Shown here: positions 1-43,648 of the stretch, piece by piece
Layout of the letters: each line of letters starts with the position of its first letter
Position numbering within the stretch: the first letter of the stretch is position 1
NCBI GenBank assembly: GCA_002803225.1
Contig: NXFV01000503.1
Coordinates: 1 to 64,000, forward strand
Reading direction: 5' to 3'
Length of the DNA: 64,000 nt
DNA from: Gamarada debralockiae
Taxonomy: Eukaryota; Ascomycota; Leotiomycetes; Helotiales; Hyphodiscaceae
Notes under the pieces: model-generated
Told to the model about the DNA's origin: nothing
Databases searched by the model: none
What the model saw: the letters and a program-made list of their open reading frames with translations, nothing else
Position numbers and translations under genes: made by a program

Positions 1-2229
1 TTGTTGTAGCGTCGTCTTCTATCATATTCATATTCTTTATGGACGGGGTGGGTGGGCTAATTATAGTTAAGTTTTCTGGGTTTCTTCCCTTTTTTTTTGG
101 GTCCTTTATTCTGATCCATGACGCTGCCAAAAAGGAAACAATTCTCGTCTTAATTAAGTAGTCCCCCGCAGCGCCAGAGGGTATGTACCTTTCGAAGTCG
201 ACACATCATACGCTCAATTAACAGTGGAGTCCAGATGGAAAGTTAGACCTGTACCCCCAACTTCACGTCTTAATTGATGATGATGTACTATCAAGCCGAT
301 ACTTGGATAGAGTCCAGGATCCTGTCCTTAATTGTCCAACCAATTTTCGATCAATTCCACATCCTCATTGGTGACTGGAGTATCCAGGTACTTTCTCTGA
401 ACTGTTCATACAGTTTGAGAGATTCCTCAATTGAGGGTCGAAACGTTAGTGTCGTACTTGGAATCGTCCACATCTTCAACGATATCTCCATCTTCAATTT
501 AAGTGTCAGAATTTTTCGCTTTGAAATCGGTCTCATATTTTCCAGTGATCTCTCTATTGTCCTCACCTCTGTTCTCAATCGTTCAACTTCTTCCTTTTGG
601 ACGATTCATTCATCATCCCGATTTCTATGACCTACTGCTAGGACCACGAGATTTCAATAACTCCTTCCCCGTGGGCCAGCAAAGCAATTGGCCTCTTCTG
701 ACTCGGCCTGTGAAGGGATCAAATTTAAGCGTTGAAGTGAAGTCAGTAAATGGACTTGCCGTCCTGAACGAAACAGAAGACAAGATACTCTAGCACTCAA
801 TCTGCTTCACTGCTTCCCATAATCACCGAATGGAATAAGAGCGTTTTTACTCAGTTTCGGGTTTGAGAGTCCGTGGAGATTGAGTGATTGAATGCGGTGA
901 GATTTTGAATCGTTCAGGGAGAGTGAAGGATTCAAAGTGATGTCTCTGAGTCTAAGTCTCGGAGATGCCAAGATGTGTTTGAAAACGAAGGACACAATAT
1001 AATGAAATGGTACATAGCTCTGGAAATTGGGGTTTACGAAAATGCCGATAATAATTCCTCAAACCAGCTGTGTGAATGAAGCCAAGCCACCCTGTGCAAG
1101 TGATCAATTGGGATACTGGCAAAAGACAGGAGTTATCAAATCACTGATTAGAGAGAAGACGGAAAGGGTTGAATCACCTACTCCGCATTCATTGTCAAAT
1201 TCACGGGGCTGCACATTCAAAGCATATATCAGAAGGACATCTCATCACTATCGCTCAGCACGTCAAGTCTGGGATGATATGTGATTGTATACGCCCTTTG
1301 ATAGTCATGACGTGAGTCCGGGCCATTCGACTCACTTTCTCAGTGCTTTGGGTTTGTTGAACGTCTGAGAAATCTGAAGAGCTATTTAAATTCGCTTGAG
1401 CTTTCCTCCATGTTTTCTTACATGGTTTTTTTCGTCCGCTGCTGAGTGCAAGCATCGGGACCATGACGGTGCAGAACATCCCGCAGCAACTTGTTATTTA
1501 GTATAGATTTGGAAATATCTCTGAGCTGATGTTGAAGCTGTTATGAACATTTAAATGTATTCACATGGGCGCAAAAATACTTGAGGATGCAGTGAGATCT
1601 AGACTGCGAAGCAATGGCTGAGGAAGCCTGTACTTGCCCCCGCCAACTTCCAGCTCCCCAGTTTTGACTCTCAATACAGGACTCAGCTGTTCAGATTTCT
1701 CTTTGCATCTTTCACACCTCCTCTATAATCTATTTTCGGGAGTTGTAGTCTCTGATTTCCTCATTTCACATTTCATCCTCTCTTAGCACTTCGCGAGCTC
1801 GTGGAGAGCTCAAGTCTAAGCATTCGGGTCTGTATGAGCGATTGAAATTAAAGGGTCTAGAAGCAATACAAGACCATTTGGTGCTCCCAAAGTTATCGAA
1901 TTAGTTTCCATTTGGAGGATTCATGCATGGACCAGACTCCAAATCTCAATCGCCACGACGACCTCGTCTGTTCAACCCACCACGGGACGTGGAATATCAG
2001 AACCTCACTGGCTCAATATTAATGAGCGATCAAAGACAAAACCACCAGAGCTGCTGAAGCTGGATACGGACGAAAACTGAATAATTGAAACTGCTGAGCT
2101 GAAACGAGGAATTTGAAAGCCTCGAATTTTTAATCGTTCAATTGTCATGAACGATTCAAATTCGGATCCGGACATCACAACCACAATTGCTGAATTTTAA
2201 TGAACGATTCATATTTCGCATCTAGGGTA
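1..2229. other. gene-poor left flank
   Basis: I find no complete gene here. Several dyad elements lie in it (for example 908-932, 2132-2156 and 2185-2209). On the minus strand around 300-700 there is a short stretch that would read as charged coiled-coil sequence (E-E-V-E-R-L-R-T-E-V near 580) but it is broken by stops and frame changes, so it may be a decayed gene. The other open frames are short, overlap each other and show no family motif. Confidence 0.4.
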
Positions 2230-5079
2230 TCACTTTCTAAGCCTATACTTCCCGCCAACGACTTCCAGCTCACACGATTGCACCTTCCATCCTAGGAACT
2301 CTTGCAGCTCTTCGTTGCTGTAAGGGAACCCATCTGCAATCAACATCTTGAGCATCATGGCAATCTGCTGCAGGGGCATCTGACTCGACGAGTTTGTGAG
2401 CATTGCTTGGATAAACTGCCAATACATTTGCATCTTCTCCGGCGTGATTCCCTCGTTCGTGGTGAGCGATTCATCAACACTCTTGGACGGCCCGGCAGCG
2501 GCTTGGGCATTTGAACGGGCGCGGTCTTCTTGGTTGAGAGTCTCGAGGACGACGAAGACGTCTTTTGTGGAGGTCTCTTGTAGGACGAGCTTGTTGACCC
2601 AGAACTTCAGAGCGCTTCGTACCAATGCTTCATCCATTTCGAGCGATTGAACAAGTTGTTCAACATTCCGCCTTACATCGCCTGGTTCATCGCTTTCGAA
2701 AGCCCATATCACCGTAGCCTGCCAGGTGTGAACTTCCTCGACAATGGTGCGGTCGCTCAGCTCTAGCTCCACTGTAGCCTGACCGAGGGCATGAAGCCAG
2801 GTCAATTTGCGAGAAGTTTTGAGCGATTCAAAACCTTGTTCGTAGCGTTTCTGGAGGTCTGTAATATCGTCGGGTATCCGATAGCTTTCGTCGTGTAGCT
2901 GAGGCCAAAATAACCTGGATAGTATTTTTGCATGTAACGAGGGGTATTCTGGGACTGATTTGGATTCTCGATCGCCCAGATCGAGTTGTTGATTGTGTCT
3001 TATGGTATGGTTAACCCGTCCGGAATCTTGTATATCCTTGAGCATGACTTCGCAACTCTGAAGGGGCGCCTCGCCGAATCGGGCTTTGAGTAGGTCAAGG
3101 ACCTTGATCTGTCAAACAGTCAGCATCGGCTCCTTCGAATCGTTCACTGATTCTGAGCAATTCGCTGAGACAAGGTCCGCCCCAACGACGTCCCCCCATT
3201 GTTCCGTCCACCCTCCAAATCGTTCACAAGATCTAAACGATTTATAGATGAAAGATCCACCCAGGGGAAATGGCAAACTAACCTCTTTTTCGAATCCTCC
3301 ATCCTGTTTAAGCAAATTCTCTCCAATAATATTCTGGAACTCCTTGATAAAGACATCCTGTGAGCCCAAGCCCCGTATCAATGTCCCAATAATATCAACC
3401 CTTTTAGACCTCTTGTAGCCAGGGCCAGCATCTACGGGATCTGGCACCCACTCCAAATCATGCCAATCTAGCTCCTCATCATCCGCTCTGCCTATCCCAG
3501 AGCCCTCGTTCAGCAACAACGCTAGTTCAACAAGCCTATCCCCGCCTGGCTTGACCGGATTACCCTGCGCATCTACAATCTCTGAAAGAAGGCCAGCGAT
3601 TATAATTCGCACAGTGTCTTCGCGTGAGCATAGATACAGTTGTAGTGGGAACGCAACTCGAGTCAGGAGGACTTCTGATTGATCGAGAACGTGGAAAGAT
3701 CGGATCATCGATATGTAGGTTTGTAGTATCTGAAGCGTAGATGCTCCAGGATGGAGTAGTCGATCGTTCAATCTTGAGGTAAAAATGTCGGTAAGACGTA
3801 GTCGTCGTTGAGGGGTGGTTATTCCTGTCAGAAGGTCGTTCAATCCTCCAGTTGAATTGGGCCATTGGGCTACGATATCGAATAATTCGTTCGTGCGTAG
3901 CATAGCTATCCAGCGAGTCAGTAATCGTTCAAACGAAATGAAAGATTGACATCCAATCTTTCAATCCCAGTGAACGACGCAGACTCAATCGCTCAAAATT
4001 AATGAACGATTAATATCATGCTCAGGATTCCCGAAATAGAATCGCTCAATCCAGTGAACGACTGAAAAGCGGACTAACCTAGATGCCCAATGCTCATCTC
4101 CTTCCATTTCTCCACTTGGCTCCAGGAGACGTTGACGCCGTTGGCATTGTTGAGAATCTCAAAGACCTGGACAGCAAGTTTGGCGTATCGATTCTCGATC
4201 CACTCGCAGAGATCCGTAGTACATCTTGACGGTGAGGCATGTTGAACTGCCCGTGGGAGAATCGTTGAAACTCCTTCAGGGATTGACTCGTCCCAAAGCC
4301 CACCGCAGCGCTGGTAGACATGCTCCCTCATGGCATCGTTCATTATCTCAGCGAAAATGATCTGGAACCTAGGTAATGTCAACCGTTGGATTTTATGAAC
4401 GATTCAAAAGGATGTACTTCTCGCCTCCCAATCCGACGTCGGACAACGACCGCACTAGCCCTAGAAAATCGTTCTCTGAAATTGAATGATTGGGACCAAG
4501 TATGGCTGATACATGCTTTCTGGTGACCTCCTTCACAGCTGTCCTATCCGGAATTGAATTGCTCACTACAGTATGGAGGTTGAGACGAAAATTCCTATGT
4601 ATGATCCGCGCATCATCCGGCCTCTGCCTGAGTAGGTGGTTCAGACGCTCAAAATAGCAGCGGTGAGCTCCTTCGAGGATATTGACGCATTGCCCGACCC
4701 AAGTATCTGGATCTGAAATTTGAATCGTTCGCAAATTCTGAACGATTGGAAAGACCTTATGCAGGTAGTGTCGCCGGACATGATTCGTATACCAAAGGAT
4801 GATGTCCTGTGTCTGGCTGGCTTGGAGGAGGCGAATTTTATGGTGTAGGAGGTCTTTGAGAGCTTCGTCAAATGCCCGGTCAGGTGATAAGGCTTTGAAT
4901 AATTTGAAGGGGTCTGAATCGTTGAGAACGGGTGGGAGATTGAGCTTTTGGGTAACGGTTTGCCATGCTCGATCCCAGTGTACCTGATCGTTCACCTGAT
5001 CTGAATGATTCGTGGGAGGGGATAGTTGGGAGACAAAGACGGATTCAAATACGCGTTTTTTCGCGCTAGATGCTGTCAT
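2230..5079 (-). CDS. apc2: anaphase-promoting complex subunit 2 (APC2, cullin-like)
   Basis: APC2 is the cullin-family scaffold that, with the RING subunit Apc11, forms the catalytic core of the APC/C ubiquitin ligase, which targets cyclins and securin in the nucleus. Four exons join in frame (5079-4418, 4368-4079, 3905-3283, 3108-2230) to give 817 residues. The middle has the APC2-typical run around R-L-L-H-P-G-A-S-T followed by R-E-D-T-V-R-I-I-I-A-G-L-L. Further on comes S-R-L-F-W-P-Q-L, and the C-terminus ends in a winged-helix segment closing G-G-K-Y-R-L-R-K, as expected for the Apc11-binding cullin tail. The start has an A at -3 and a good N-terminal match. Introns 2 and 3 (173 and 174 nt) are about three times longer than usual in this window and are filled with dyad elements. 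Exon 1 also carries copies, read as N-H-S-D-Q-V-N-D (residue 24) and N-H-S-I-S-E-N-D (residue 197). Confidence 0.9.
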
Positions 5080-5679
5080 ATTTGTGGTCGTTTTTGAATC
5101 ATTGAATCTTTGTGAACGATTGTGTTCTGGGATGCTTTGCTGTCTCGTCGAAGAAGGGTGTCGCGATGGCCATTTCGTTTACCCGCGTCGTCACGTGACC
5201 TTCGGCTAAACTCGCCGGACGCCTCCCGCCTCTTGAATCACTGGTCTTGATTGAGCCATTTGAAAATAGGGATTTTGAATCTCTCGTACCATGGGAATGA
5301 CTGGATATTGAATTGCTCTCTGTGTTTGAGCAATTGAAAAATATCCCGAGTCGCTTTCAGGATATCAGCTCTTCCTTCGCGTAAGCGAATGTCCCCCTGA
5401 ATTTAACCCTAATATTCTTCAGTATTAGAGTGAATGAAATCAGAAATCCAAGTGGCTCACTCTATTTGAACGATCAAGCCTTCAACTTTCTGTTCAATGC
5501 GAATCAAACCTGAAATCCTGAAACCCCTTCTGCTTAGACTCAAAGGCTAAGTAAATTTAATCAAGAGGAGACATGGCGAAACACTCGTGCTCTCGACCTG
5601 TTGGATCCAATCAAAATTACAATCTATGAAACCTAGTTCCGAAATATGTGGTATACAAGTGTACAAAAACGAAAACAAA
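5080..5679. other. intergenic space between apc2 and yvc1
   Basis: This 600-nt gap holds the presumed apc2 promoter and the tail region of yvc1. It contains four readable dyad elements (5097-5121, 5236-5260, 5311-5335, 5451-5475) and an E-box palindrome at 5191-5198. I see no coding potential beyond short chance frames. Confidence 0.6.
5191..5198. promoter_or_regulatory. E-box-type palindrome TCACGTGA
   Basis: The 8-bp palindrome lies about 110 bp upstream of the apc2 start codon. In yeasts this sequence is bound by Cbf1/Pho4-type bHLH factors; use here as a promoter site is inference from position and sequence only. Confidence 0.4.
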
Positions 5680-8474
5680 CTACTCATCCAGATCTGCGGT
5701 CCCACTCCTATCTAAATCATGCAACGTTCCCGTCAGCCCACCAGCCACACTTGATCTCTCACTCCTCTTCCTAGGTCCATCATCCAACTCCTCACACAGC
5801 CGTCCCAACATCTCCTCAATCCTCCCTGTGCTCTTCTCCAACGCCTCAAGTCTACTCTTCATATCTTCAACACTATCCTCATCCTCGCTCCCCTCATTCA
5901 AAAGATCTCTCATCCGTTGCGACATCCCCTCAAACGGCATCACTGAGTCCCTCCTGCTCTTCATACTCTTGCTCGTCATCGTTCTCTTCAACCCAGGCCT
6001 CGGAATCTCCCCTGCTTCATCCTTATCCTTATTTTCAATTCCCTTCGATGGTCCCTCAAACTCTTGTTCGAACGCCCGTATATGTGTGTTCAGATCGTCA
6101 TCCGCCTCGATCTCATCTTCGATCTCTTGCGGTGGCTCAGCGTCAAATACTGCTTGGATGTCACCATATACTGAGAAGCCTCGCGAGAAGTCCCAAAGCC
6201 CAACTCGGGCATGCGGCGCTTTGGGGAGCTGTTCCGCCTCTTTTTGGCGCCGAATCCCAGACCAGAGGATGCGACGTTCGGTGAAGCCAATAATGAGCAA
6301 CAGTGGTGCATTGAGTGTGCGGACGGCTGCTACATTTATTTTGTGGAACCAGCGAGGTGTGAGGACTTGTTTGAGAGGAAGGAGGATCAGTAGAGCGAGG
6401 ATGTTGAAAGGTGGCTGATACGAAAATATGGCGTCACTCTTCACTCCTTCTAGCGTCAACACTGCGCGACGGAATTGAATCTCAGCCGTAGCATTCGAGA
6501 CGATTGTCGAGAACGTAGTAGAGAGCATGGACACCAAGATAGTAAGGAAGAGCGTATTTCCCAGAAATGCGAAAGCCACCATGAGGATAGGTCCTAGAAG
6601 CCAGTGGAAGTCTATGGATCGTTGAATGCCCGTCCCGTCAAGACCAAACCATACCCAGAGCATCCACTTGCTGATGGTGATGGGTTCGTGTGCGCCGTTG
6701 CTGAGCCAGGTCATGGAGAGCAGGAAACCGGCAAAACACCACACAGCAAGCACGGTGAGAACGGTGAAATCGCGCATCATCTCCCGTAGCGAGATGAACA
6801 GCATGTTTTCCGACATGAGATTGAATGCTAGTCGAGGGACGAGGGCGGGTGCGCCCATGGCGAGAACATCCATTGCTTGTTGGGCGGGGGCAAGTTCTCC
6901 TTTTCGTAGGCCATGAACGCGAAGGATGAGATAGATTCCGAATATCGTGGAAAAAGTTACGTCCAGGAAGGACCAAAGGTTTTGGGTGTATACACGCCAT
7001 CCTTAACAGTCGTTAGTTCGAATTTAACAGTGGTGTGAGTCTGGTGACTTACCGTGCTCTAATATTGATGCAAATAGGTCCAATACCCATCCACAAGTAT
7101 ACACAATGAAAACCCACTCAACAACCCCCGGAGCCGATGGGTTACGATCTGCCATGACAAAGACATATAATACCAGAAGAATTATGAATTGACAAATTTC
7201 CAGAATGTTTCTCGTCCGTGGGACAATAAGTCGATATTGGTTGAACATAGGAGCCTTCCGAGGGTTATAGAGAGATATCGGCTTTTGCTTGTAATGATCA
7301 GGTAAGATGTCAATGAACGAGGTCGGAGTGTAAACCACTTTTCCTTCATAAATCGCACTCACAACCCTTTGACATGCCGACGAGCTCAGGAACGCCTTGC
7401 TCTCCGTGATAATGGCTATTTCGAGAGCAGGCAGTTTCCTCTTATACCCAGTCCGGCTCTTGGAGGTCCATGGCATGTTGCCCTGTTCTCGGATGACTTC
7501 TTCTGGGGCACCTTGGAAAGGGTCGAAGCCGCCGACTAATATTTGAGCGAGTAGCAGTAGACCTTGAGATCCAGGGTTGTCTTCGTGGAATCGACGAAGA
7601 ATTCGGTTTGCTACGAGCTCGCAAAGGAGAGCACGTGTTGTACGAACACTTTGTTGATGTGGTTGGGCTAGCTGCTCTCTCATGAACTGAGCTCGGTTTA
7701 CCAAAAGGCAATAGACTATGATTCTTGTCAGTCCTACTGCTAAGGAGAAGCGTGCTAACGTTGTATAAGAGGCTGTCGGTGCCTTGAGCAAAGCCCAGAC
7801 TTTCCTTTCGACAACTGGATAGACTCGTCATGTTCGAGGAAACAAGTTCACGGGTCTACTTGGGGGCAGCCATTCTCACAGTAATCAGTCCCATTTTCAA
7901 CCATCTTGATTCTTCAAATTCCCGAGGATGACTTCATCCCTTTTCAGACCACTAAGTGACTACCCAAAACCCATAGAAGATGGATTGAGACTTTCAGACC
8001 CAATAAAAACGCCGTTTGACTTACTAATAGAAACATCATCCAATTCATACAGCCTATCAACCAGGGGCCGCACAATAGATATATTCATCCGAGGATCTCT
8101 AAGCTGCTCAATTGAGTACGGATCATCTATCCAATTAAGTTAGCTAATTCCTCGCTCCCTTTTCTCCAAAGATAATCCTACCGATGGCCTGAATGATATC
8201 TCTCCGAATCCTATATACCAAGTAAATCAGCCAACGATCCAATGTAATGACTTATGCAGTAAGATCGAGGGATAACTAGAACGAACCGATGAATAGTGGT
8301 ATAAACAGGTAAATCCGCATAAGGATTAACCGGGCAAACATCATTAGGGCCATGAGGAGGGAAGCATCCGTCATGGTCATGATCCACTTCAGGCACTGGA
8401 TCCTCCGACGGCAGGAGTCGCTCGGTCTCTCCACCGTGTCGGGAGGACAGGTGAGAGGACCGTTGTTGTCCCAT
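5680..8474 (-). CDS. yvc1: YVC1-type vacuolar TRP cation channel
   Basis: Yvc1 is the fungal TRP channel of the vacuolar membrane that releases calcium to the cytosol. Five exons close in frame (8474-8287, 8210-8182, 8126-8025, 7715-7053, 7001-5680; 767 residues). Landmarks of the family are H-R-I-R-R-D-I-I-Q-A-I, S-I-V-R-P-L-V-D-R-L-Y, V-Y-T-P-T-S-F-I-D-I-L-P-D-H-Y and Y-R-L-I-V-P-R-T-R-N-I-L-E. Hydrophobic segments follow at about residues 290-310 and through exon 5 up to about residue 500. The cytosolic tail is acidic and has a short predicted coiled coil (M-K-S-R-L-E-A-L-E-K-S). The start codon at 8474 precedes a polar G-Q-Q-R-S-S N-terminus. An upstream in-frame ATG at 8624 would add 50 basic residues with no family match and was not used. 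The donor of intron 1 (GTTCGT) is weak but gives the conserved junction. Confidence 0.9.
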
Positions 8475-9235
8475 TATTATGAATAAGAGCCAAGCTTTGA
8501 TGCGCAACGGTTGATCAACGTGACGGCGCCATCGAAGCTTGAGTCGAGATGGGGAAGCTCTCGCGATAAGGTCGTTGAGGCGGCGACGGGAACGAAGAGA
8601 GGCCCACCAATCACATGCCTTCATCTACAGCATTTCTTTCTCTCTTTGAAGAGCGATGAAAACTTGGAACACATCCTAGCTTTGCTTCGAAATAACATAC
8701 AAACGGAACGAAACCGCAGCTACGGAATTGTGCCGTATCAAAATGTCGTCCCTTGCTAAAGACCGCTATAAGCCCGTCTACACAGTCCTTTCCATCCAAT
8801 ATTCAGGTCACCAAAGATGCAAATACATTCAGGTAGCTTTTGAGATCCCTAGGTTTGGCCAATTCCTGCCCGTTACGGAAGCAAGCGCCACCGTATACCG
8901 GGACCTCTGGGGAGTTGAAGAGGTTGGAATTGAATCACATGCACTGAGAAAGATGTTACGAGAGCTGCTATGGCTGCTTTGAAGTAGTCTTTTGAAATGA
9001 AGTATGACTGATACTGAGAGGAATGGAGCATATCCAGTTGAAGAAGTTGGGTATGAGGTGTTCAAGATTGAGGATTTTGATGGCGAGTAGCTTTGGGTCA
9101 CAAGAAAGAATCTCGATCAAAAACAGAATATGGGACCCTTGGGTTCAAGGGCAAAGCAATGCGCTCTAAGCAGTAACTCCTATACAATGATTCCAATAAT
9201 TTCCAGCCAATTTCCACAAATTTTTTCGGATGTGC
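8475..9235. other. intergenic region, no supported gene
   Basis: About 760 nt between the divergent end of yvc1 and the end of sec9. A plus-strand open frame at 8743-8982 would give 79 residues starting M-S-S-L-A-K-D-R, but it overlaps a minus-strand frame of similar length and matches no family I know. I see no RNA gene. Confidence 0.4.
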
Positions 9236-34145: not shown

Positions 34146-34192
34146 CCACCAGGGGGTGTACTAATTGATGACGGATTTATCAGCAGCCAAAA
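34146..34192 (+). repeat. left terminal inverted repeat of the Tc1/mariner relic
   Basis: About 47 bp, matching the reverse complement of 35309-35355 apart from a missing C and single substitutions such as A for G in the TTTATCAGCAG segment, which is a RIP-type change. Confidence 0.85.
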
Positions 34193-34209
34193 AACCACCA
34201 AAAATTGTA

Positions 34210-35280: not shown

Positions 35281-35308
35281 GGATCATTTATTTACGCTTT
35301 TTGGGGAT

Positions 35309-35355
35309 TTTGGCTGCTGACAAATCCGTCATCAATTAGGTACACCACCTGGTGG
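35309..35355 (-). repeat. right terminal inverted repeat of the Tc1/mariner relic
   Basis: Partner of the left repeat at 34146-34192. Beyond 35355 the similarity to the left flank quickly becomes ambiguous, so the exact element boundary and TA target duplication are not fixed. Confidence 0.85.
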
Positions 35356-41746: not shown

Positions 41747-42208
41747 AATAGGGATTGACAGACTTGTATTTAAGGAATTCAGAATAAACATTTCAAAGCC
41801 GTTCAGGTGTTAACTCAGGTGCTATCACAGTCAAATTGCGGTTCGTTGTTGGAAGGCACAAGCGTTGGCAACTCTTTTCGTTGTCTCGACAAGGAAGCTT
41901 TGACCGAGCTTCCATTTACGAATCCCGTTGACACCCGCATTCAGGTCGCATGATTCGAACATACTTTGCAGTCACGCTTTCTAGGCCCATCATATACCTC
42001 CCCCTGTTAATTAAATCTTCTTCTGGATTTGCATCATTCAAGTCATGCAAATGATTAGAATTTATATCTGGATGATTCTACTTTCTGAATAACCAAGTTC
42101 AACGATATCAAGGGTACCCAGCATCCTTGATTTTGAATCCCTCAAGTTCTATGAACAATTCAAATTCATGATTTTGGAAACGTTCCTTCTCTATAAGCAA
42201 TGTGATTC
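41747..42208. other. intergenic region with two dyad elements
   Basis: About 460 nt between the complex I subunit gene and the next gene. Dyad elements lie at 42032-42056 and 42137-42161. No coding frame is supported. Confidence 0.5.
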
Positions 42209-43648
42209 ATGGAGTCCGGCAAAAGCTCGTGGTTTCTTCCCTTTCCCAAGGCAGTACCTTCCAACATTGTTTGCTGGGCAGTGATATCCTTCTAGCCTTC
42301 TTTCAATCGTTCAATCTTTTTCAATAAATCAGCAATTTCTTTCGAAATCACCAACTGGATCGTTCCCTCGATTACCTCCTACACATCTCGCACAGGCATA
42401 CCCTTCCCAGTTGAATTGCTCACTTGAAGATGCGGTACTAGAACTGGGTATGTAATCTTCGAAGCAATCCACGTTTTTTCCTATTCTGTCCGAATCGTTG
42501 AGTTCTATTAAGAGATTCTCCTTAGAGGATGTCCTTGGAGATCAACTCTCATAAGACCGCTTAATCGTCCTCCTGTATTGAGCGATTGCTAATTCCGATA
42601 TTTTGCACAGGATGTCCTCGTCGTCCCTTACGAAAGCAAGGTCCCTTTGCAAGAATTCAAGACCACATGCCAGGTCATCCAGGATCCAGGTAAGCACCCC
42701 ATTTACCAAACCCTCACACCAGATGAACGATTGTTGATCTTCGCATTTCCCATTGTTTAGATCTGTTGAGACTCACTGAACGATTCAGAAGCCCGTATCC
42801 AACAACCCCACTCGGTAAGTCCCTAGTTGCTCAATATATGTGAACAATTCGCGATATTTCAATCGCTGATCCGATCTGAACGATTCTAGACGTTCTCGAA
42901 GCATCCGGTATTGCATGGCCCAACCCTACGATGTGGCGTCAGGCGCTGTCACCCCTTTTTCGCCCAGCAAGTCGAGGTTCCTTCCTCGAGACATACGATT
43001 ACTCCCTCCCCCCCCAAAAAAGTCCCGGTCTTTACTAGGCAGCCCACCTTCGATCCGTTCACTGAGCCGAAGGATGCCCAGGAGTAATCGTTGAGTTCGG
43101 ATGAGCGATTGCGGGGCGTACACTTGAATGGTTGACGTCTTTTGAACGATTGGTAGGACCTCATTAGATAGCTTTAATACAACTCCTTGACTCACTATCC
43201 ATCACCTATGGCCATATCGCGCTAGCCATGTTTCGTTGGTTCAAATATATTGAACGATCCTTTTACGCGTATGGAGGGTGATGCTGCCCGTGGAGCTGGA
43301 CCCCGTCGACCGGCGAGAGAAGAGCTTCATATGGGTTTCAAAATTCGAATGAACGATTGTCATTATAGGACGGGCATTGGTTGGTTTGGAATCGTTCAGA
43401 GCATTTGAACGATTATAAAGTATGCCACTGAGCGGCATCCAGAATATTCAGTAAGTCGAATCTTTCAAGCTATTTGAGCAAGTCAGATTTGGTGTCTATT
43501 AACATTTAAAAATGGACCATTTAAAATCTTCCGAACTTTTAGACCTCTGGCAGTACTTTCCAGATGGATCGTTCAGGATCTTTGAACAATGGACAATAGA
43601 TAGTCCCTTGAATCTGCGGTATGAATCGTTCAAGATCCTTGAACAATT
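42032..43648. repeat. cluster B of 25-bp dyad elements AATCGTTCA-N7-TGAACGATT
   Basis: At least 15 copies with the same 9-7-9 layout as cluster A start at 42032, 42137, 42493, 42563, 42708, 42761, 42825, 42861, 43086, 43127, 43235, 43390, 43459, 43567 and 43624. The copy at 43390-43414 has two perfect arms. Several sit in introns of the gene at 42209-43038; that at 42761 forms the first half of an exon. The two clusters are 37 kb apart and the genes between them are almost free of the motif. Confidence 0.85.
42209..43038 (+). CDS. uncharacterised five-exon gene riddled with dyad elements
   Basis: I do not recognise the product. Five exons (42209-42280, 42333-42434, 42611-42689, 42761-42814, 42890-43038) close in frame to 151 residues. 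The start reads M-E-S-G-K-S-S-W-F-L-P-F-P-K. Exons 3 to 5 join into one smooth frame (V-L-V-V-P-Y-E-S-K-V-P-L-Q-E-F-K, then D-L-L-R-L-T-E-R-F, then L-D-V-L-E-A-S-G-I-A-W-P-N-P-T-M-W-R-Q-A), which is why I trust them. The donor of exon 2 is uncertain: GTACTA at 42435 keeps the frame, whereas the better-looking GTATGT at 42448 does not. Exon 5 runs into eight C and six A residues just before the stop, so the C-terminus is sensitive to one-base errors. Dyad elements lie in three of the four introns (2, 3 and 4; intron 1 has only a half-matching copy near 42305) and in exon 4. It could also be a decaying gene. Confidence 0.5.

Follow-up and report, generated by a model that had tools for sequence, protein, structure and literature searches.

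What is the 25-bp dyad that crowds one end of this piece of fungal DNA, and what maintains so many copies of it there? The whole stretch analysed, here called the window, is 64 kb long and forms part of contig C210 in a genome of 54.3 Mb and 1,112 contigs. The original prediction placed at least 17 copies between positions 908 and 5475. When the window was searched with the 25-bp pattern AATYGYTSA-N7-TSARCRATT at up to three mismatches, 42 dyads were found against 1.19 expected (100 shuffles, maximum 4). The predicted density is borne out, with 23 dyads lying at 908-5475, 15 of these at two mismatches or fewer. A second cluster at 42,136-43,648, which the original prediction did not mention, holds 15 dyads, two of which overlap each other, and the remaining four are found at 400, 727, 23056 and 26468. 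The window also contains a 60-bp inverted repeat pair (34146-34204 and 35298-35355), 88% identical and about 1.1 kb apart.

The first cluster lies on APC2, which we take to be an essential gene. Its features are as follows, the dyads of the cluster being scored with the position weight matrix (PWM) described below.

2007..5475, no strand: cluster 1, 22 dyads at PWM score 11 or more across APC2, with its 5′ flank and 3′ end included, and further dyads leftwards to 400
CDS 5079-2230, minus strand: the APC2 gene, 817 codons in four exons, with Pfam TPR_ANAPC2, Cullin and ANAPC2; host of cluster 1
3906..4078, minus strand: APC2 intron 2, 173 nt, with dyads 3923, 3955 and 3987 at 32-bp steps and a spacer-6 copy at 4040
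3109..3282, minus strand: APC2 intron 3, 174 nt, with dyads 3138 and 3218
2132..2209, no strand: two exact dyads past the APC2 stop (2132-2156 and 2185-2209), 53 bp apart

The APC2 frame is intact across all 817 codons, its introns are at 4417-4369, 4078-3906 and 3282-3109 on the minus strand, and the protein is closest to that of Hyphodiscus hymeniophilus, with 73% identity, which makes a leotiomycete close to Hyphodiscus the probable host. Dyads had been placed in the promoter, introns and exons, and they are indeed found in the 5′ flank (5097, 5236, 5311 and 5451), in introns 2 and 3 and in all four exons, as well as directly beyond the stop codon. The Hyphodiscus entry P0001 (1405 aa), which matches window 2230-7827, fuses a neighbouring membrane-protein-like gene with APC2. 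This entry may be a mis-joined model; in the window the genes look separate and stand in the same order.

The dyads are real and are spread over the whole genome. Counting every site once, there are 234 exact dyads (109 + 125); the number rises to 1,045 at up to one mismatch and 2,807 at up to two, against 3 and 49, respectively, for a reversed-pattern control. The excess over a control, on which the original prediction had staked its case, thus holds. Its picture of a family tied to one essential gene was right in that APC2 carries dyads but too narrow, as the element occurs genome-wide. The family behind its consensus is likewise real, but AATYGYTSA is degenerate and not a fixed sequence. 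In the open-licence literature, no fungal motif was described for AATCGTTCA or TGAACGATT among the matches listed, and the same holds, again among the matches listed, for the dyad motif or such a family in fungi.

The anatomy of the dyad was studied in a sample of 259,079 bp comprising the window and 20 stretches (L016-L035) of up to 10 kb each. Every stretch was picked for an exact dyad, so densities drawn from them are not genome averages. A PWM was built from this sample and is therefore trained on the dyads that it then scores; at a cut-off of 11 it recovers 195 dyads, compared with 3 in one shuffled set. The arms are symmetric and carry ∼0.9-1.8 bits per position. Alternatives are tolerated at positions 4 and 6 (C or T) and at position 8 (C or G). 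The flanks are weakly T-preferring, and the middle of the spacer varies freely. Facing half-site pairs with no more than two mismatches in all number 122 at a spacer of 7 in the sample, and every other spacer between 0 and 30 gives 10 or fewer. In the genome at up to one mismatch, spacers of 8 (56, control 2) and 6 (48, control 4) are above control, yet they are about 20 times rarer than the 1,045 at spacer 7, and spacers 8-38 pooled give 19 exact matches (control 1). The near-fixed spacing of 7 nt is thus upheld in sample and genome alike. The spacers themselves had been called unrelated. This is nearly so among 166 dyads at full identity, where seven pairs agree at 7/7 against 5.6±2.6 in a column-shuffled null, but a slight excess appears at 6/7 (132 versus 99±11).

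Inverted arms with a constant distance between them bring to mind a hairpin of RNA or single-stranded DNA, with a stem of 9 and a loop of 7, acting in transcripts or as a mobile palindrome of the REP kind. Perfect copies could certainly fold in this way, the loop length being constant, but the arms do not co-vary. Among the 195 dyads, Watson–Crick pairing at eight of the nine position pairs falls within five counts of the expectation for independence (at position 8, for example, 118 against 118.6), and at position 6 it lies below it (89 observed, 100.5 expected). The C/G alternative at position 8 is mostly one-sided, with 36 and 22 one-sided cases against 7 in which both arms have changed. A sense-strand bias towards G–U wobble was not significant in the full set (68 versus 51, p=0.14) or in the genic subset (24 versus 18, p=0.44), and the consensus fold of an intron family that carries dyads, described below, leaves the arms unpaired. 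As the arms vary independently and no significant wobble bias accompanies them, a hairpin is not supported, and we hold this reading, including the earlier suggestion of a hairpin copied by repair, to be very improbable. Bacterial REP sequences and the palindromic elements of Rickettsia are short palindromes scattered genome-wide, also within genes. The dyads resemble them in being short, scattered and present inside genes; they differ in that the arms show no stem pairing beyond chance, the spacers are nearly unrelated and, in three clean cases in APC2, no insertion is seen.

A symmetric consensus, half-sites that vary independently and a fixed spacing between them are what is expected of homotypic sites for a dimer. 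The dyads are probably clustered double-stranded DNA sites to which a putative homodimeric protein of this fungal lineage would bind in a sequence-specific manner. One subunit would recognize each arm, AATYGYTSA, with the geometry set by the 7-bp spacer. Of the mechanisms offered at the outset, binding by a dimeric protein, albeit a putative one, is the one that the fixed spacer and the independent arms support.

The arrangement of the dyads fits such a reading. In 14 of the 20 chosen stretches, four or more dyads are clustered with gaps of 1 kb or less; the other six have no such cluster. Among 125 adjacent distances of up to 400 bp, 12 are 31-33 bp and seven are exactly 53 bp. An independent set was drawn from the genome as exact arm-to-arm gaps of 0-30 bp (50, control 1), from which eight rows were dropped as belonging to stretches already used (C37, C44 and C210). 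In this set, 14 of 42 gaps are 7-8 bp, placing the dyads 32-33 bp apart (p=2e-7). Phasing of the whole spacing distribution with the helix was suggestive in the first set, where 3 of 2000 jittered sets were equally strong, but not significant in the independent 42 gaps, where p=0.35 once gaps of 7-8 are removed and p=0.11 for gaps of 27-29. The safe statement is that abutting dyads at about three helical turns are preferred. The dyads thus form clusters with a preferred inter-site spacing, at 32-33 bp, as homotypic clusters do. The EBNA1 sites in oriP of Epstein–Barr virus (EBV) are palindromic, dimer-binding, repeated and spaced by whole helical turns. The likeness to the dyads lies in palindromy, repetition and helical spacing; the difference is that oriP belongs to an episome, whereas the dyads lie across a nuclear genome, in exons and introns. 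The clusters extend over ∼0.4-4 kb, and neighbours abutting at 32-33 bp suggest cooperative loading of several dimers.

Sites of this kind might be no more than ordinary operators for a transcription factor, the promoter sites of a large regulon. Such a regulon is compatible with the binding part of the explanation that we prefer, and the shape of the PWM, the dimer symmetry, the likeness of the clusters to homotypic regulatory clusters and the four dyads in the APC2 5′ flank all speak for it. Against it, dyads occur throughout gene bodies, in introns and exons; at L026 4.8-6.2 kb they occupy an interval flanked by convergent predicted coding segments. Inside clusters, the density is 7.5 dyads per kb in noncoding DNA and 2.9 per kb in predicted coding DNA, the coding and intron models being home-made and crude. 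The genes near clusters, read by eye with no statistical test, show no evident common theme; they include APC2 and what we take to be a histone-deacetylase-like gene and coproporphyrinogen oxidase and GatA neighbours. We regard a regulon of promoter sites as unlikely. One of the stretches, L023, also carries a tandem repeat array at 8248-9225 with a period near 102 bp, mostly within a predicted coding segment.

Dyads within exons allow the origin of single copies to be followed against homologous proteins. Five of those in APC2 are listed here.

4986..5010, no strand: exonic dyad on the conserved codons NHSDQVNDQVHW; homologue P0002 has DSDHVRDQVQW, with no indel
4917..4941, no strand: exonic dyad on LNLPPVLNDSD; Hyphodiscus has LTLPTVANDAD, of equal length (by eye)
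4723..4747, no strand: exonic dyad with one mismatch on PIVQNLRTIQ; its left half is on a stretch shared with homologues, its right half in a variable loop
4467..4491, no strand: exonic dyad within a variable-length loop
4260..4284, no strand: exonic dyad on WDESIPEGVSTILPR; Hyphodiscus has WDEPVPDRVSMILPR, with no indel (by eye), and other Helotiales are longer here

A 25-bp insertion can be rejected for the dyads at 4260, 4917 and 4986, where the homologous codons run on with no indel (by alignment, and for Hyphodiscus by eye). As they show no insertion relative to homologues, these three dyads most likely arose in place; the insertion that marks micro-elements of the REP/RPE type is not seen at them. 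Codon choice in exons is biased. APC2 has 10 exonic dyads at PWM score 11 or more, whereas 300 synonymous shuffles average 1.41 and never exceed 5. An open frame in L027 has 14 (synonymous-shuffle mean 0.52, maximum 4) and one in L034 has three (mean 0.51, maximum 2). Selection appears to hold the arms at the level of DNA, in intergenic DNA, in introns and even in synonymous codons. To our knowledge, few eukaryotic DNA-binding motifs occur at thousands of sites and also enter coding sequence at a cost to codon choice. The L027 frame (4633-6996, minus strand) is 788 codons long, and no homologue was found for it at E≤1e-10 among the scored candidates; it is a gene peculiar to this lineage or else a frame that is kept open although it is not a gene.

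By eye, the exonic dyads seemed well conserved in homologues, but a formal test mostly did not bear this out. In none of eight homologue comparisons was less score lost than under scrambled matrices (0/8). When APC2 was compared with Hyphodiscus, 89% of scrambled matrices equalled or outdid the real one, and P0042, with a single scorable position, failed. The absolute dyad score of the homologue was above 95% of scrambles in two of the eight (P0122 and P0126), with P0121 just short at 0.053. P0042 is a metagenomic APC2, 85% identical in alignment, and its five best dyad-compatible peptides fall on five of the APC2 dyads. Its translated intron 3 contains two dyad-compatible peptides, at 27.2 and 23.2, where 300 shuffles gave 26.7 for the best and 13.2 for the second best, a comparison at peptide level only.

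The second cluster of the window brings in introns that have themselves been copied.

42032..43648, no strand: cluster 2, 17 dyads at PWM score 11 or more
42448..42610, plus strand: introner-like intron, GTATGT...CACAG, with dyads at 42493 and 42563 and similar copies elsewhere in the genome

By the crude coding model, there is overlap between the cluster and two short segments predicted to be coding. When cluster 2 was used as a DNA query, the interval 42433-42613 had eight partial matches at other places, with 71-87% identity. The window unit was aligned with six of the eight; the C37 piece is seen in L024 and the C326 piece was left out. The ends of the copies were picked by hand, although for L036 the BLAST alignment itself spans GTATGT to CACAG. 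Of the six other copies aligned, four start with GTATGT and one with GTACGT, and four end in ACAG; the others are cut by the stretch fetched. Full copies carry two dyads, and exactly one base past the second comes CTRAC in four of the six copies that reach there, window included (the window has CTAAT and C343 has CTTAC). Outside the dyad arms, the members of the family (window 42448-42610, L036 and L039-L043) are ∼73% identical. A conserved core lies near TTGGAGGATGTCCTTGGAGTT and has eight matches in the genome at up to two mismatches (control 1). The sequences flanking the copies differ. The seven aligned copies are thus similar introns with canonical putative splice sites in different places, and we read the unit and its copies as a dispersed, introner-like family of putative introns. 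Such elements, and symmetrical stwintrons, have been described in fungi (PMC4457414, PMC8469720 and PMC9860276, as far as the excerpts of these papers go), and the unit at 42448-42610 resembles them in its canonical ends and in having similar copies elsewhere. Extended internal symmetry is reported for fungal introner-like elements in the excerpted part of PMC8469720; in this unit, no long internal inverted repeat was detected, as the self reverse-complement scores lie within the shuffle range in all seven copies and in the consensus. A further difference from the elements in those excerpts is that most dyads examined here lie outside the intron family.

Introner-like introns, or some other mobile unit, with two dyads each could in principle have spread the dyads, in which case clusters would mark intron-rich genes and most dyads would be decayed relics. 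The family just described is a two-dyad unit present at several places, and distant members are found at E≤1e-3 in L018, L019, L021, L024, L025 and L026. The fused module TGARCRATT-R-CTRACTC occurs 72 times in the genome (control 0), an arm stands exactly 1 nt 5′ of CTRAC at 9 of 390 flank sides, where the background rate predicts ∼0.5, and in APC2 intron 2 the last dyad arm is 1 nt 5′ of a CTGAC branch-like site. A crude splice model predicts 37 introns, of which 10 contain dyads; these have a median length of 172.5 nt, compared with 65 nt for those free of dyads. Against this, repeats lie within 40 bp of only 3 of the 195 dyads in the 259-kb sample once dyads are masked, a rate equal to that of control points (99/6003); with neighbouring dyads left unmasked, 71 of 166 flanks gave non-local matches. 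A general repeat family was rejected on the masked figures. Modelled introns contain only 14 of the 195 dyads, to which the dyads of APC2 introns 2 and 3, missed by the model, are additional; for the dyad family as a whole, then, the dyads do not in general sit inside copied introns. Three exonic dyads in APC2 show no insertion, and decay is not expected to spare the arms yet randomize the spacers. Spread by introns as the general explanation is, in our judgement, quite improbable. Dyads carried by the recognizable intron family are in the minority. Because copied introns gave rise to some intronic dyads, the dyads are not all independent of one another. The earlier comparison with palindromic micro-elements that insert into genes thus fails as a general account and leaves a minority of dyads in the intron family.

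Paralogous copies allow arms and spacers to be compared directly. In the aligned intron copies, pairwise identity is 84% in the arms (499/594), 64% in the spacers (135/210) and 73% in the rest (1239/1695), the excess in the arms ranking 12th of 163 mask shifts. APC2 intron 2 compared with C1029 gives 60/68 in the arms and 38/49 in the rest (Fisher p=0.08), and an APC2-like fragment on contig C853 gives 17/18 and 34/44 (p=0.16). The arm excess is modest in each single set, and all three sets agree in direction. The C853 fragment (L038:49-110) is 62 bp long, 84% identical to APC2 exon 1 and has a dyad inside; a search of that contig gave no further match to window 3890-5500.

Binding by a homodimer accounts for the fixed spacer with its free sequence, the independent arms, the in-place origin of exonic dyads, the codon bias and the abutting spacing. 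What such a protein would do is a separate matter. Because the clusters cover the bodies and ends of unrelated-looking genes, a role in chromatin or chromosome organization is favoured over promoter control, with low certainty. In its fullest form, the proposal is that this lineage has a genome-wide system built on one motif, that a dimeric protein coats many dispersed loci of ∼0.4-4 kb, exons and introns included, as chromosome-organizing or homologue-pairing ‘buttons’, that the motif bends codon choice in genes such as APC2, and that proliferating introns picked the motif up and take it to new locations. This is put forward tentatively, as a possibility that is more apt to be wrong than right. 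Two functional analogies, taken as such and not as tests, come from homologue pairing. In the excerpted part of PMC9071541, each chromosome of Caenorhabditis elegans has at one end a pairing centre of 12-base motifs, to which the C2H2 zinc-finger proteins ZIM/HIM-8 bind. These centres resemble the dyads in that one short motif in many copies serves, in the worm, a chromosome-scale task, and differ in that those 12-base motifs are at chromosome ends, whereas the 25-bp dyads lie on many contigs and are known from sequence alone. The other is the button-barcode model of homologue pairing (PMC11098084, in excerpt), to whose buttons the dyad clusters might correspond in function.

If a protein does bind the clusters, they would be a natural chromosome-scale binding code in filamentous fungi. 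The link between the dyads and a multiplying intron family also raises the question of whether introns may spread as carriers of protein-binding sites.
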